A stretch of 64,000 bases of DNA from Rhodohalobacter mucosus (GTDB taxonomy: Bacteria > Bacteroidota > Rhodothermia > Balneolales > Balneolaceae). A model generated the notes under the pieces. The model saw nothing but the letters and a program-made list of their open reading frames with translations. It was not told the DNA's origin and ran no database searches. The position numbers and the translations under genes are program-made. Positions within the stretch are counted from its first letter, which is position 1, and each line of letters opens with the position of its first letter. Below are positions 2,335-38,575 of the stretch, one piece after another. The DNA lies in NCBI RefSeq assembly GCF_003150675.1, contig NZ_QGGB01000008.1, positions 124,001-188,000 on the forward strand, given 5' to 3'.

Positions 2335-2904
2335 ATGGACGACATTTCGCTGATACGACTGGCCCAAAACGGGGATGCCAACGCATTCAATGAGCTTGCA
2401 CAGCGCTGGCAGGGAAAAATTCACCGGTTTGTATACGGGTTCTTTGGAAATGCAGACGATGCCGGAGAGATTACGCAAAAAACATTGATTCGCGTATACA
2501 GAAAGGTTCAGGACCTGGATGATCCGGCCCGTTTTTCGTCCTGGATCTACCGCATAGCCAACAACCTTTGCCTGGATGAACTGAAGCGCGCAGGACGCAG
2601 GAGGTCAACCCCTCTGAACGGAGAAGAGACACTGATCGCCGATTCGCCCAGCCGCACTCCCGCAGGACAGCTGGAAAACAGGGAGCTGGGCGAAATTATT
2701 CAGGATGCATTGGTCCTGCTGCCTGACGAACAGCGAATTGTTATTGTTTTGAAAGAATATGAAGGGATGAAGTTTCGGGAAATTGCCGACATCCTTGAGG
2801 AGCCCGAAAATACAATCAAATCAAGAATGTATTACGGGCTAAAAACCCTCAGAAACACATTAACAAAGTGGAACATACCCAAGGAGTACCTGAACCATGA
2901 ATAA
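2335..2904 (+). CDS. RNA polymerase sigma factor, ECF subfamily
   Basis: A sigma-70 family factor of the extracytoplasmic-function group with only regions 2 and 4. Region 2 (about residues 15-85) includes the core-binding helix and the -10 recognition part with SSWIYRIANNLCLDELKR. Region 4 (about 120-180) has LPDEQRIVIVLKEYEGMKF followed by the helix-turn-helix EIADILEEPENTIKSRM. The frame is open from a TTG at 2326, but the ATG at 2335 gives MDDISLIRLAQNG, which aligns with normal ECF N-termini, so I prefer it (189 residues). The stop overlaps the start of the next gene by 8 bases, which indicates translational coupling with its anti-sigma factor. It probably senses an envelope or stress signal through that partner. 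Confidence 0.92.
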   Translation: MDDISLIRLAQNGDANAFNELAQRWQGKIHRFVYGFFGNADDAGEITQKTLIRVYRKVQDLDDPARFSSWIYRIANNLCLDELKRAGRRRSTPLNGEETLIADSPSRTPAGQLENRELGEIIQDALVLLPDEQRIVIVLKEYEGMKFREIADILEEPENTIKSRMYYGLKTLRNTLTKWNIPKEYLNHE

Positions 2905-3586
2905 AGAAGAAACCAGAAACCGTCTGATGGACTATCTCTACGATGAGATGGAAAGCGAGGAAAGAGCCGCATTTGAGAAGCAGCTTTCAGCCGATAAGGA
3001 GCTTCAGAATGAACTGAATGAACTGAAGTCTGCGCGATCGCTTTTTTCGAACATACCGTATGAAGCCCCATCCGGTTTGCTCTTCCAGGTGAATGATAAA
3101 TCATCTGAACCGGACAGGGAGTCGCTGCCTGATGCGGAACAGCGCACTGCCCGCGGAGCATCCATTTACTCACTGTTCGGGCGCGGACTTGCAGCGGCAG
3201 CCATCTTACTGATCGGTGTATTTATTACCGCTTTTGCCGGCATCGAGTTTGGCAAAACGGAGAGCGGGTTCTATCTCACAATCGGTGAGCCTCCTGCCGT
3301 ATCACAATCCGGACTCAGCGAGGAAGATGTGCTGAATGTGGTGACCCAGATGCGCGAGGAGAACGCCATCATGATGGCGGCCATGCTCGATCAGGCTCAG
3401 GCACAACAGAATGAGCAGCTTGAGGAGGCCATCAACATTCTAACGACTTACTATGAGGATCGCCGTCAGCAGGACCTGATGCTTATTTCAGAGGGTTTCA
3501 ACCAGCTGGAGAGAGACACCTACTCCCGCTTCCGGCAGACAGATGAAACACTGGGCAACCTTATCTACGCACTGAGCAACCCATAA
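2897..3586 (+). CDS. Membrane-anchored anti-sigma factor (probable)
   Basis: A 229-residue single-pass membrane protein whose start codon lies inside the sigma gene, the standard arrangement for an anti-sigma partner. The cytoplasmic part (1-95) is helical and acidic, with MDYLYDEMESEERAAFEKQL resembling the anti-sigma domain of zf-HC2 proteins, but the HxxxCxxC zinc ligands are absent. One transmembrane helix spans about 96-115. The exported part (about 120-229) is Gln/Glu-rich and probably coiled-coil, with LDQAQAQQNEQLEEAINIL. I infer that it holds the ECF factor at the membrane and releases it on an envelope signal. The assignment rests on position, topology and the N-terminal pattern rather than on a clear family signature. 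Confidence 0.75.
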   Translation: MNKEETRNRLMDYLYDEMESEERAAFEKQLSADKELQNELNELKSARSLFSNIPYEAPSGLLFQVNDKSSEPDRESLPDAEQRTARGASIYSLFGRGLAAAAILLIGVFITAFAGIEFGKTESGFYLTIGEPPAVSQSGLSEEDVLNVVTQMREENAIMMAAMLDQAQAQQNEQLEEAINILTTYYEDRRQQDLMLISEGFNQLERDTYSRFRQTDETLGNLIYALSNP

Positions 3587-3604: not shown

Positions 3605-4849
3605 ATGAAGACACTTATCAAACTGATCCTGATTATCATTGCCATACTGCTCGGTGAACAACAGTTACAAGCTCAGAATGCCAATAATCAGATTGACTCC
3701 CAGATCCGAATCGCCGAAAGTATTCTGGAAGAGATATTTAAAAGCCCGGATTCCAATGCGCGTAATTTTTTTCCGGGGGGGCAAAAATTGGTACAAGGTG
3801 AATACATACCCGGCATAGGGGTGCACTTCAAAATTGACATCAGCCAATCCAGGTTTTACATGGACAGAGACAGCAGCAAAACAATATCCGGTAGTGTTGT
3901 AACCAAAGAATGGGTAGAGGAAAGAATGCTGGAGTACTACAACGGATATGCGGCGCAGCTGCGAAGCGTGCCCGACAGGGAGCAGGTGCGAATCACGTAC
4001 GGTTCCGATACCATAAACCGGAGTGTTTTCATAATTGGGCGTCGACAGGAGATTTCATATGAAAGTCCTGAAACAATCACCGCCTGGGCATCCATGTCCG
4101 ACATCAAAGCGTATGCATCCGGAAATTTGTCTGAACGTCAGTTTCGCGAACGTCTGACGATACAGGATATAAGTGAACAGGATGAAAGGAGGGATCTTAA
4201 CATTTTTGCCTCTGTCCTGGAAACCGCCATGAACAGCGCCGAAACCGAACATCTTCGTGTTCGGCGTGAACCCACCTACGAATACCTGCCGGGTTACGGG
4301 GTTCATTATCACGTACGCGTCGGTACAGGATCTTCGTTTTCATTCGGAATTCTGGAAGACATCGCCGTAGATCTTGACGAGGCGGATCTTGAGGATTTTG
4401 ATATAGAGATCGATCTGGGTGACATTGATGTGGATCAGAACAGATTCGAGTTTGATCTCGACAGCATGGACATTTCTATACAGAGAATGGCCGATTCTAT
4501 GAAGGTTTATGCAGAGGGCATCCGGATCGATACGGCGCAGCTCAGGCAGCACGCTGAGCAGGCCCGTCAGCAAGCCGAACAGATGCGGCAGCGTTTTGAA
4601 CTTCGGATTGCAGAGAGAGACAGCGTTGATCTGTCAGGCGATGCCGAACTGATGATGGACGAGCTAATACAAACCATGCGAGATTATTCCGGAACGCTGG
4701 CCAGTCTTGAGGAGGATCAGCTGCTGGTGATTACCCTGCACTGGGAAGGACGGAACCCGTCGCTGCCAGAACGCACGCAAATCCGCATAATCAAAGGCGA
4801 TCTGCAGCGGGGCGCTGAGCCGGAAATTGAAGAAATCAGGCGTAGATAA
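3605..4849 (+). CDS. Secreted acidic coiled-coil protein of unknown function
   Basis: A 414-residue protein with a clear signal peptide (hydrophobic residues 4-17, likely cleavage after QAQ near residue 24). I do not recognise a family. Residues 25-235 hold two similar segments, each with a PG-x-GVHF/Y pattern (YIPGIGVHFKID and YLPGYGVHYHVRV), suggesting an internal duplication. Residues about 250-295 are extremely acidic (LDEADLEDFDIEIDLGDID), and about 300-345 form a Gln/Glu-rich heptad coiled coil (QHAEQARQQAEQMRQRFEL). It sits 18 bases behind the anti-sigma gene and before a strong terminator, so it is the third member of that operon. A role as envelope sensor or as a target of the sigma factor is inference only. 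Confidence 0.8.
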   Translation: MKTLIKLILIIIAILLGEQQLQAQNANNQIDSQIRIAESILEEIFKSPDSNARNFFPGGQKLVQGEYIPGIGVHFKIDISQSRFYMDRDSSKTISGSVVTKEWVEERMLEYYNGYAAQLRSVPDREQVRITYGSDTINRSVFIIGRRQEISYESPETITAWASMSDIKAYASGNLSERQFRERLTIQDISEQDERRDLNIFASVLETAMNSAETEHLRVRREPTYEYLPGYGVHYHVRVGTGSSFSFGILEDIAVDLDEADLEDFDIEIDLGDIDVDQNRFEFDLDSMDISIQRMADSMKVYAEGIRIDTAQLRQHAEQARQQAEQMRQRFELRIAERDSVDLSGDAELMMDELIQTMRDYSGTLASLEEDQLLVITLHWEGRNPSLPERTQIRIIKGDLQRGAEPEIEEIRRR

Positions 4850-4870: not shown

Positions 4871-4907
4871 AAAAAGCCGCTGACCCGATACAGGTCAGCG
4901 GCTTTTT
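4871..4907 (+). terminator. Rho-independent terminator of the sigma operon
   Basis: A perfect inverted repeat: AAAAAGCCGCTGACC (4871-4885), a 7-base loop, then its exact complement at 4893-4907 ending in a T run. It lies 22 bases after the stop of the secreted protein gene. The A and T runs on both sides make it able to work in both directions. Confidence 0.93.
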
Positions 4908-4950: not shown

Positions 4951-5184
4951 CCCGGTCAGCTTGACCGGGGGGCATGATCGATGGAGGGTACTATCCGTCT
5001 CACGATCAGCCTGACCGTGCAGAAGAAGTAACACATCAAAGCCCTACGGCAGAACTCCTCAAGAGCAACCCTGCAAGTAGGTTAAGCGGGCAAGCTGCCC
5101 GCTGGACTAAGGAAGTCCCTCCTTCAACCGTTCAAGGTATAAGACACCCCGGACTGGATGTCCAGGGAACTTGGGACAAACCCG
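4951..5184 (+). repeat. REP-like four-hairpin module, upstream copy
   Basis: Four short palindromes share the form GGnCA-loop-TGnCC with a 3-base loop: 4951-4969 (CCCGGTCA/TGACCGGG), 5004-5018 (CGATCA/TGACCG, one mismatch), 5085-5103 (AGCGGGCA/TGCCCGCT) and 5147-5167 (degenerate, GGAC/GTCC). The 179 bases from 5006 to 5184 recur at 5979-6157 with 8 differences, in the same orientation. The upstream-most hairpin is also duplicated in form and spacing (see 5926). An open frame at 4974-5204 lies inside this repeat and is not considered a gene. Together with the transposase it forms a probable REP/RAYT unit. Confidence 0.85.
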
Positions 5185-5250
5185 TTGAATGTTATTCTAA
5201 ATAATCAAATATTTCCCTGAATTGAACGGAGAGAATATAATCCTACATCC

Positions 5251-5907
5251 ATGCCTTTCTACAGGAGAAATCTTCCGCACTTGCAAGAGCCGGGGGCTGA
5301 GTACTTTGTAACCTTTCGATTAGCGGGTTCTCTTCCTAAAGAAGTGATTCTGCAACTCAAGGAATCCAGGCATTTTTTGGAAAAAGATTTTTGCAAGGAC
5401 GTCGATTATCAGCTCAGAAAACGCAGGATTGACGAATTGTTTTTCAAAAAATACGAGTCATTATTGGACAGTCAGAGCACAGGACCTCATTGGCTGAAGA
5501 AAAAATCTATTGCTGCTATCGTGATGGAAGCACTTCATTTTCGCGATCGTAAAGAATACGATCTATATGCCTATTGCATTATGAGCAATCACGTGCACAT
5601 CGTATTCAAAGATCTCTCTCCATATCAATTGAACCCGATACCCGAAAAAGAAAAGGAGAAAGCATTTCCGGTAACAAAAATCATGCACAGCCTGAAGTCC
5701 TACACCGCGTTAATGGCCAACAGGAAATTAAACAGAACCGGTGCTTTCTGGCATGAAGAGAGCTACGACCGAATGATCCGAAGTGAAACAGAGCTGGAAA
5801 ACACCATCAGGTATACATTAAACAATCCCGTCAAAATAAATCTTGTAACAGATTGGTGGGATTGGCCATATAATTACTGTAAACCCGAGTTTTCGGAGAG
5901 TTTTTAA
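5251..5907 (+). CDS. REP-associated tyrosine transposase (RAYT, Y1/HUH family)
   Basis: A 218-residue member of the IS200-like Y1 transposase superfamily, RAYT branch: single-strand DNA nucleases that recognise REP hairpins. Visible hallmarks are the HUH metal site NHVHIVF (His114, His116), FWHEESYDRMIR, and the catalytic tyrosine in YTLNNPVK (Tyr188) followed by WDWPYN, which aligns with the C-terminal WPF of E. coli TnpA-REP. The N-terminus MPFYRRNLPHLQ and YFVTFRL is also typical. It is flanked on both sides by copies of a four-hairpin repeat module, which supports the RAYT call over a transposing IS200/IS605 element. The frame is intact. The gene is more AT-rich than its neighbours, consistent with horizontal origin. 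Start is the ATG at 5251. Confidence 0.92.
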   Translation: MPFYRRNLPHLQEPGAEYFVTFRLAGSLPKEVILQLKESRHFLEKDFCKDVDYQLRKRRIDELFFKKYESLLDSQSTGPHWLKKKSIAAIVMEALHFRDRKEYDLYAYCIMSNHVHIVFKDLSPYQLNPIPEKEKEKAFPVTKIMHSLKSYTALMANRKLNRTGAFWHEESYDRMIRSETELENTIRYTLNNPVKINLVTDWWDWPYNYCKPEFSESF

Positions 5908-5925
5908 TTTGCTCAATAAACAATC

Positions 5926-6157
5926 TTTGGACAAGCTGTCCGGGGTACATGTTCCAACATAAAGTAGTGCCCCTCCGGTCAGCCTGACCGTGCAGAAGAA
6001 GTAACACATCAAAGCCCTACGGCAGAACTCCTCAAGAGCAACCCTGCAAGCAGGTTAAGCGGGCAAGCTGCCCGCTGGACTAAGGAAGTTCCTCCTTCAA
6101 CCATTTAAGGTATAAGACACCCCGGACAGGCTGTCCGGGGGACTTGGGACAAACCCG
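5926..6157 (+). repeat. REP-like four-hairpin module, downstream copy
   Basis: Second copy of the module. Hairpins lie at 5926-5944 (GGACA/TGTCC), 5976-5990 (CGGTCA/TGACCG), 6058-6076 (AGCGGGCA/TGCCCGCT) and 6120-6140 (CCCCGGACA/TGTCCGGGG, perfect 9-bp arms). Distances between hairpin starts are about 50, 82 and 62 bases, against 53, 81 and 62 in the upstream copy. The identity block ends at 6157, three bases before the stop codon of the convergent osmC-type gene. The third stem base varies T-A, A-T or G-C between hairpins while pairing is kept. Confidence 0.85.
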
Positions 6158-6160
6158 CAC

Positions 6161-6595
6161 TCACCCATTCAGCGTATAATCGAGCGTAATATCGGCATTG
6201 AGCACTTTGGACACGGGGCATCCCTTTTTCGCGCCTTCTGCAAGCTCGTCGAACTTGTCGTTTTCAATTCCCGGAACTTTGGCATCCAGTTTCAGGGCAA
6301 TTTTGGTAATGGCCCAACCGCCATTCTGCTTATCAAGCGAGAGTTCTGCATCCACGCTGAGTGTATCTGCCGTATATCCCTCTTTCTCCAGGGCAACACT
6401 GAGAGCCATGGCATAGCATCCTGAATGGGCGGCTGCAATCAGCTCTTCCGGATTGGTCCCAAGTTTACCATCTTCATTTTCAAAGCGTAATTTTACGGAG
6501 TACGGCTGCTCGTCGAATGCACCGCTTTGCGTGGTTAGCATTCCTTTTCCGCTGGTGCCGGCTCCTTTCCAAACTGCTTTCGCTGTACGTTTCAT
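6161..6595 (-). CDS. OsmC family peroxiredoxin
   Basis: A 144-residue OsmC/Ohr-superfamily thiol peroxidase that reduces organic hydroperoxides in the cytoplasm. The two redox cysteines are present in their expected contexts: Cys60 in AHSGCYAMALS and Cys126 in KKGCPVSK. The sequence follows the OsmC rather than the Ohr pattern, with the N-terminal TAKAVWKGAGTSGKG and GTNPEELIAAAHSGC. Full length. The stop codon lies only 3 bases beyond a REP-type repeat module, so the natural 3' flank has probably been replaced by the mobile repeat. It is transcribed away from the adaptor gene at 6839, with a 243-base divergent spacer between them. Confidence 0.93.
   Translation of the reverse strand: MKRTAKAVWKGAGTSGKGMLTTQSGAFDEQPYSVKLRFENEDGKLGTNPEELIAAAHSGCYAMALSVALEKEGYTADTLSVDAELSLDKQNGGWAITKIALKLDAKVPGIENDKFDELAEGAKKGCPVSKVLNADITLDYTLNG

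Positions 6596-38505: not shown

Positions 38506-38575
<70 letters not shown>

Follow-up and report, generated by a model that had tools for sequence, protein, structure and literature searches.

The locus considered here carries a transposase gene between clusters of short hairpins, and the question it raises is whether gene and hairpins move together as one element or form a REPtron, a known kind of unit in which a domesticated transposase sits beside hairpins presumed to be cut by it. We put a probability of roughly 0.87 on the locus being a REPtron, with a TnpAREP/RAYT most like Quentin subclass 2.4 and cognate REPs on both sides. There is good support for reading the gene as a TnpAREP and the hairpins as its cognate REPs; sequence, predicted fold and hairpin enrichment around 24 loci agreed with the RAYT unit named in a preliminary description of this DNA. 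The features are listed in Table 1, in positions of the window, i.e., the whole 64-kb stretch that was analysed.

Table 1. Genes, repeat copies and hairpins of the RAYT locus, in window coordinates
Feature	Position	Strand	Form and remarks	Evidence
Upstream neighbour gene	3605..4849	+	414 aa; insertion-site marker	
Hairpin H1A, outer left	4951..4969	+	CCCGGTCA-GCT-TGACCGGG, foot GTCT	
Left copy of 182-bp block	5003..5184	+	hairpins 2, 3 and 4, of which 2 and 4 mispaired	
Hairpin H2A	5003..5017	+	CGATCA-GCC-TGACCG, one mispair, foot GTCT with 8-bp stem	
Hairpin H3A	5085..5103	-	AGCGGGCA-GCT-TGCCCGCT, foot GTCC	
Hairpin H4A	5147..5167	-	degenerate, GGACT-GGA-TGTCC; orientation from intact copy H4B	
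RAYT/TnpAREP gene	5251..5907	+	218 aa	sequence, profile, fold comparison
Hairpin H1B, outer right	5929..5948	-	GTAC-CCCGGACA-GCT-TGTCC; listed at 5926 in the preliminary description	
Right copy of 182-bp block	5976..6157	+	hairpins 2, 3 and 4, all of the form GGnCA-loop-TGnCC	
Hairpin H2B	5976..5990	+	CGGTCA-GCC-TGACCG, foot CCCC, no GT	
Hairpin H3B	6058..6076	-	AGCGGGCA-GCT-TGCCCGCT, foot GTCC	
Hairpin H4B	6120..6140	-	CCCGGACA-GCC-TGTCCGGG, foot GTCC	
Downstream convergent neighbour gene	6161..6595	-	insertion-site marker	

The eight hairpin positions and their spacing (53/81/62 and 50/82/62) held as first described. The form GGnCA-3 base loop-TGnCC, claimed for all eight, applied to six; the other two, both in the left copy, were mispaired (GATCA/TGACC at 5004 and GGACT/TGTCC at 5151). 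The sequence GGNCANNNTGNCC occurred eight times in the 64-kb window, six of them at the locus, compared with a mean of 1.29 and a maximum of 7 in 100 shuffled windows. GTCC was the foot of three hairpins, GTCT of two and GTAC of one (H1B, the sole GTAC foot of the unit), with two others; the GT[AG]G foot that marks the GTAG REP superfamily was found in 0/8. Changes between the two copies of one window hairpin broke pairs and were not compensated.

HUH and catalytic roles are assigned by homology to N113-H114-V115-H116 (NHVH) and to Y188, the presumed catalytic Tyr within Y-T-L-N-N-P; residues N113, H114, H116, Y188, N192 and P193 were invariant in 17 aligned sequences. The window protein matched Pfam Y1_Tnp above its cut-off and NCBIfam REP_Tyr_transpos (NF047646) with 65.7 bits (E 3.9e-18), below the curated cut-off of 80, and 17/17 family members matched the latter at E 0.001 or better. 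No match was obtained in the PDB with the single window sequence. A profile of 17 homologues (17 of the 24 loci) found one chain only, 4er8, the TnpAREP of E. coli (PMC8266576). The AlphaFold model of the window protein (mean pLDDT 84.4) aligned to 4er8 with a Z of 13.6 over 144 residues, the next entry, the best IS608 chain, reaching 10.2; Foldseek with the predicted model gave E 1.5e-07. Against the subclass 2.4 motifs NH[IFV]H, WQ and YIxNNP, the window protein has NHVH, WH and YTLNNP. Its W167-H168 stands where most relatives have W-Q (WQ at L058 in the alignment of homologues, which covered 22/24 loci, the broken genes L069 and L070 being excluded). In the profile alignment W167 corresponded to W94 of the 4er8 protein and H168 to Q95, for which, among other residues, an interaction with GTAG is reported in the available text of PMC6006769. 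The dN/dS between G058 and G042 was 0.14, and in pairs with the window gene, which were saturated at synonymous sites, pN (0.15-0.24) was below pS (0.74-0.82); these values show that the protein is kept under purifying selection. Elsewhere in the window genome the RAYT gene has only distant Y1 relatives. One of these (L071, G000:C2:14578-14973) had hairpin pairs on both sides with TCC/TCT loops, one core of which was present on both sides and at a single further position.

When 92 family genomes were searched, the window genome included, 53 had some match and 21 a close homologue, broken in two of these; with second copies counted, this gave 24 loci. Their flanks (at most 700 bp on the upstream and 900 bp on the downstream side, 37 kb in all) contained 81 perfect hairpins, compared with 1.4 in shuffled flanks. 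Palindromes particular to this RAYT subfamily flank the gene. The remaining 128 kb held 28, of which 15 were array REPs in G067, G078 and G050 and three were within the gene itself (G024, G023, G025). Two of the 24 loci (G024, G023) had no perfect hairpin in the flanks. An in-frame REP within the gene was seen in the homologues of G024, G023 and G025 and none in the window gene; such an insertion is described as a hallmark of subclass 2.4 in the available text of PMC6006769. A tandem array with a period of 145 nt was present in G078; G010 had a 32-aa N-terminal RAYT fragment upstream of the full gene (L055), and in G016 the full gene was followed by a second RAYT copy that had decayed (L062).

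The hairpins were scored with a 4-nt foot, an 8-bp stem in which no fewer than 7 positions paired and a 3-nt loop. Among the 77 scored, 62 had a GCY loop on one strand; a GTA* foot was found in 47/62 on the GCY-loop strand and in 0/62 on the other, and was missing in register from 15/62. The commonest feet were GTAC (29), GTAG (10) and GTAT (5). Loops of 4 nt or of other kinds were present at some loci in branches further away, and GTAG feet occurred in other branches of the RAYT family, e.g., in G078, G025 and G022. The REPs of this clade are oriented 23-mers with a 4-nt foot, an 8-bp stem and a GCY loop, and what is new here is that most of them carry GTAC as the foot, where published REPs have GTAG/GTGG. 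The stem covariation first claimed for the window had come from comparing hairpins of different types and failed there; it was recovered once relatives were added. In 26 distinct hairpins, 98.6% of cells were paired compared with 68.5% after shuffling, and the covariation score was 0.778 compared with 0.178 when shuffled and 0.036-0.099 with partners slid; these 26 were hand-picked from the 77 as distinct with a GCY loop, a choice that favours pairing.

The two copies of the 182-bp block were in direct orientation and 95% identical, with 9 differences. A duplicated inner block had been described correctly, its size (179 bases) and number of differing sites (8) had not. Beyond 5003-5184 and 5976-6157 similarity ended, with 2/10 bases matching at the left edge and 1/10 at the right, and by loop orientation the outer hairpins (GGTCA type at 4951, GGACA type at 5926) lay on opposite strands. 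There is therefore no symmetrical four-hairpin module, of which two copies had been proposed; the module that is repeated has three hairpins, the outer hairpins being outside it. Both copies of the block in the window genome were at the RAYT locus. The block minus its hairpins had no match in 91 relatives except 26-27 nt in G076 and G048, which overlapped hairpin 3. Tandem Repeats Finder reported no repeat at the RAYT locus and none in L009 of G067 either, although the array there was plain by eye. Elsewhere in the window, ten perfect GGACCGT copies (38506-38575) lay just after one gene, presumably for a metal-transporting ATPase, and before a convergent gene.

The chances are evenly balanced that plain replication slippage or unequal recombination produced the duplication of the block and the protein was not involved, an origin compatible with the REPtron explanation. 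The tandem array in G078 speaks for such an origin, as do the fragment in G010 and the decayed copy in G016, which look like tandem duplications. However, one edge of the repeat is the base of hairpin 2, a boundary that cleavage there would also give, so the edge fits the enzyme and slippage alike.

The copies of CGGRCANNNTGYCCG numbered 122 in G067, 46 in G063, 41 in G068, 40 in G055, 33 in G054, 29 in G025, 27 in G076, 24 in G058, 16 each in G050 and G077, 15 in G047 and 13 in G051, with 0-2 mirror controls in those twelve genomes. The window genome had four, three of them at the RAYT locus. With any third base allowed, CGGNCANNNTGNCCG was found at 12 places in the window genome, five at the locus and seven elsewhere (control 4); three of the seven were fully paired and one other had a GCC loop but was mispaired, none combining both, so that no fully paired hairpin with the right loop was found away from the RAYT locus. 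A lack of further hairpin copies in this genome had been named in the preliminary description as grounds against its reading, and the whole-genome search did find no dispersed ones; dispersed REPs in the host genome, as in other REPtrons, were present in relatives, e.g., G067. A GTAC foot together with a GCY loop was counted 112 times in G067, 40 in G063, 36 in G068, 33 in G055, 25 in G054, 18 each in G058 and G076, 13 in G077, 12 in G047, 5 in G051 and 3 in G050, and never in G025, G042 or the window genome; the control gave 0 in each of the 14 genomes. The GTAC foot was thus carried by 112/122 REPs of G067, which among the matches listed were grouped in twos or in small arrays at numerous sites, the usual REPIN pattern.

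REPs were also present in G063, G068, G055 and G047, where only distant Y1 genes were found, and in G051, where no Y1 match at all was found. These five genomes carry 13-46 REP copies; their assemblies consist of roughly 130 to 520 contigs each, and a RAYT buried in repeats could therefore be missing from them. Of the Y1 matches in ten genomes, 4 were close and 32 distant. Within at most 1.5 kb on each side, 25 of the 26 distant loci compared had no CGGNCA hairpin and one had a single hairpin about 1.36 kb from the gene; the other six distant matches were all in G067. Hairpins in relatives lacking a RAYT had been named in the preliminary description as grounds against the link, and such populations were indeed found where no close RAYT was found. 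The REPtron reading stands, because the same kind of hairpin flanks close RAYTs and is nearly absent around the 26 distant Y1 loci compared. In G063, a pair of genes (2626-3036 and 3044-3382 of L111, G063:C10:4500-10500) lay between two GTAC-footed REP arrays, where a RAYT would be expected; it encodes a nucleotidyltransferase and a substrate-binding partner (PF08780 and PF18765/PF01909) and, as we presume, resembles HEPN/MNT toxin-antitoxin systems.

The lack of dispersed copies in the window genome is also what would be expected if the REP family were extinct there, the gene now had another function and the hairpins were fossils. Two of the three left-copy hairpins are broken and the feet have drifted to GTCC/GTCT, in keeping with such a relic. 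However, the catalytic residues are intact, the protein is constrained and the three right-hand hairpins keep the form GGnCA-loop-TGnCC, and we consider a relic unlikely.

The insertion site bears on movement as a whole, with the hairpin modules as ends of an IS-like element, as the preliminary description had suggested in calling the locus a composite mobile unit. G042 has the upstream gene, the RAYT gene and the downstream neighbour, which we take to be an OsmC-like gene, in the same order as the window. The OsmC-like gene follows the RAYT gene in G058, whose contig starts before the latter, and the upstream gene precedes it in G077. The RAYT gene is absent from G043 and G062, where the two neighbours are about 95 bp apart, and from G044, where they are 108 bp apart and one hairpin is left (assembly listed with 9% contamination). 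That solo hairpin (L044) has a T-T mismatch, and each half is similar to an outer hairpin of relatives, the left half (like GGTCA) to the left one and the right half (like TGTCC) to the right one; it could be an excision scar or an old REP with one mutation. The RAYT proteins of the window, G058, G042 and G077 formed one supported clade (99/96). This pattern looks like an old insertion followed by inheritance with loss, and not recent movement. A mobile unit would account for the hairpins on both sides of the gene, for close homologues beside other genes in other genomes, and for the gene pair that lacks a RAYT in G043, G044 and G062. However, the genome has a single locus with gene and block, the block copies are direct and not inverted, the feet and left hairpins are decayed, and the shared site in G042 and the OsmC-like neighbour in G058 are as inheritance predicts. 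Because the site has the gene in two relatives and lacks it in three, nothing shows that the unit moves now as a whole, and we regard this explanation as very improbable.

A terminator-like hairpin (4871-4907) directly follows the upstream neighbour gene, and Rfam gave weak matches only in that region, all below the gathering score. That the hairpins act on RNA, by ending transcription of the flanking genes or stabilising their mRNA, with an incidental link to the transposase, is the least probable of the alternatives: they do lie between convergent genes, one usual REP position (PMC3733652, available text), but foot and loop follow a strand-specific rule, the association is with close RAYTs only, and Rfam had no match over the window hairpins up to E 1.

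The strand-specific rule of foot and loop, the dispersed populations and in-frame gene REPs of relatives and the constraint on the protein also speak for the REPtron. Points against it are the NCBIfam score below the cut-off, the lack of dispersed REPs in the window genome and of GT[AG]G feet on its eight hairpins, the two loci with bare flanks, the 15 GCY hairpins that lack a GTA* foot and the relatives that have hairpins but in which no close RAYT was found. For the REPtron, a mechanism can be outlined. The protein would be a domesticated IS200/IS605-like HUH nuclease acting on its own REPs. By homology, it would bind the folded single strand of one orientation, reading loop and foot, and would cleave near the REP through Y188, leaving strands that could be rejoined. 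Cleavage of REPs, with the foot as guide, is what we infer by analogy. In relatives, paired REPs, tandem arrays and dispersed REPINs would have come from enzyme action or from replication over repeats. The window genome keeps only the home cluster, duplicated once locally as the 182-bp block and partly decayed.

Published REP feet are GT[AG]G in the available text of PMC6006769 and GTAG/CGTC in that of PMC3733652. The main text of PMC6006769, PMC3733652 and PMC2817692 contained no word beginning with GTAC, although a consensus drawn in a figure may hold one. In the literature on RAYTs and GTAC palindromes, as far as the available texts go, GTAC was found only as a made mutant in PMC8266576, where no cleavage was left in the Sm system after this change and the Mb system cut at GA and GT, the cleavage site having moved. 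From this in-vitro work, GTAC feet are predicted to direct cleavage to GT/GA. On the family tree, the state GTAG versus not GTAG changed at least five times, counted over 19 manually labelled rows (three, G024, G023 and G016a, unlabelled) and on a tree with only 5/19 inner branches well supported. The foot was mixed in G075 (mostly GTAC, also GTAG and GTAA), and G050 had GTAG with GTAA. Six proteins (window, G058, G042, G077, G067 and G028) have H or C at the Q95 equivalent and all have non-GTAG feet; GTAC feet occur with three Q proteins as well (G054, G075, G026). The association between foot and Trp-x residue is suggestive only, because the independent-pairs test had 3 supported pairs and a p of 0.5-1. 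Cleavage sites were tested in sequence through the first bases 3' of REPs at 13/24 loci, in 15 GTAC and 8 GTAG stem families. For GTAC and GTAG respectively, CT was found in 11/15 and 4/8, CA in 9/15 and 2/8, GT in 9/15 and 7/8, and GA in 10/15 and 4/8; there was no clear difference, and the predicted GT/GA sites were neither supported nor contradicted by this comparison. We propose tentatively, at somewhat less than even odds, that within one RAYT family the foot, a guide to the cleavage site in published systems, went through several natural switches between GTAG and GTAC (and on to GTCC in the window) and that the reader residue changed to His or Cys only in non-GTAG proteins. If true, nature would have reprogrammed where these single-strand nucleases cut by changing guide and reader together, and GTAC REPs would be cut at GT/GA.

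These results extend RAYT/REP systems to the little-studied Balneolaceae; a search for the Balneola group with transposase or palindromic terms gave no REP literature among the matches listed. Natural GTAC-footed REP populations allow the foot to be tested as a cleavage guide, so far addressed with mutated oligonucleotides (PMC8266576, available text), and genomes with about 40 REPs in which no close RAYT was found bear on whether REPs outlive their nuclease.

Among known systems, the 4er8 protein is 16% identical to the window protein over the structural alignment (165 compared with 218 residues), and its REPs have a bulged stem, unlike those of the window. The REPtron Sm of Stenotrophomonas maltophilia (TnpASm/REPSm) shares with the clade a 23-nt REP, an 8-bp perfect palindrome, a GCT loop, of which the first base G is needed in Sm, and a 4-nt foot; however, the Sm foot is GTAG, compared with GTAC in most of the clade and GTCC/GTCT in the window, and TnpASm belongs to group 3 whereas the window protein has NHVH and YTLNNP (PMC8266576, available text). 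TnpAY1 subclass 2.4 (Bertels group 4), whose listed members come from Bacteroidetes and various phyla, has in common NHVH, Y..NNP and in-frame gene REPs, the last in three relatives. Differences are its WQ where the window has WH, the window feet, which are not GT[AG]G, and the in-gene REPs, which lie before the HUH motif in the relatives and generally between HUH and Y in subclass 2.4 (PMC6006769, available text). The REPtrons Ma and Mb of Marinomonas MWYL1 differ from the window in REP size and in their natural GTAG foot, and are like it in having REPs concentrated near the gene (PMC8266576, available text). Pseudomonas fluorescens SBW25 has about 1000 dispersed REPs, whereas none were found in the window genome; its REPIN clusters, with tandem units including flanking DNA beside RAYTs and inverted pairs, are like the arrangement described here (PMC3116915, available text).
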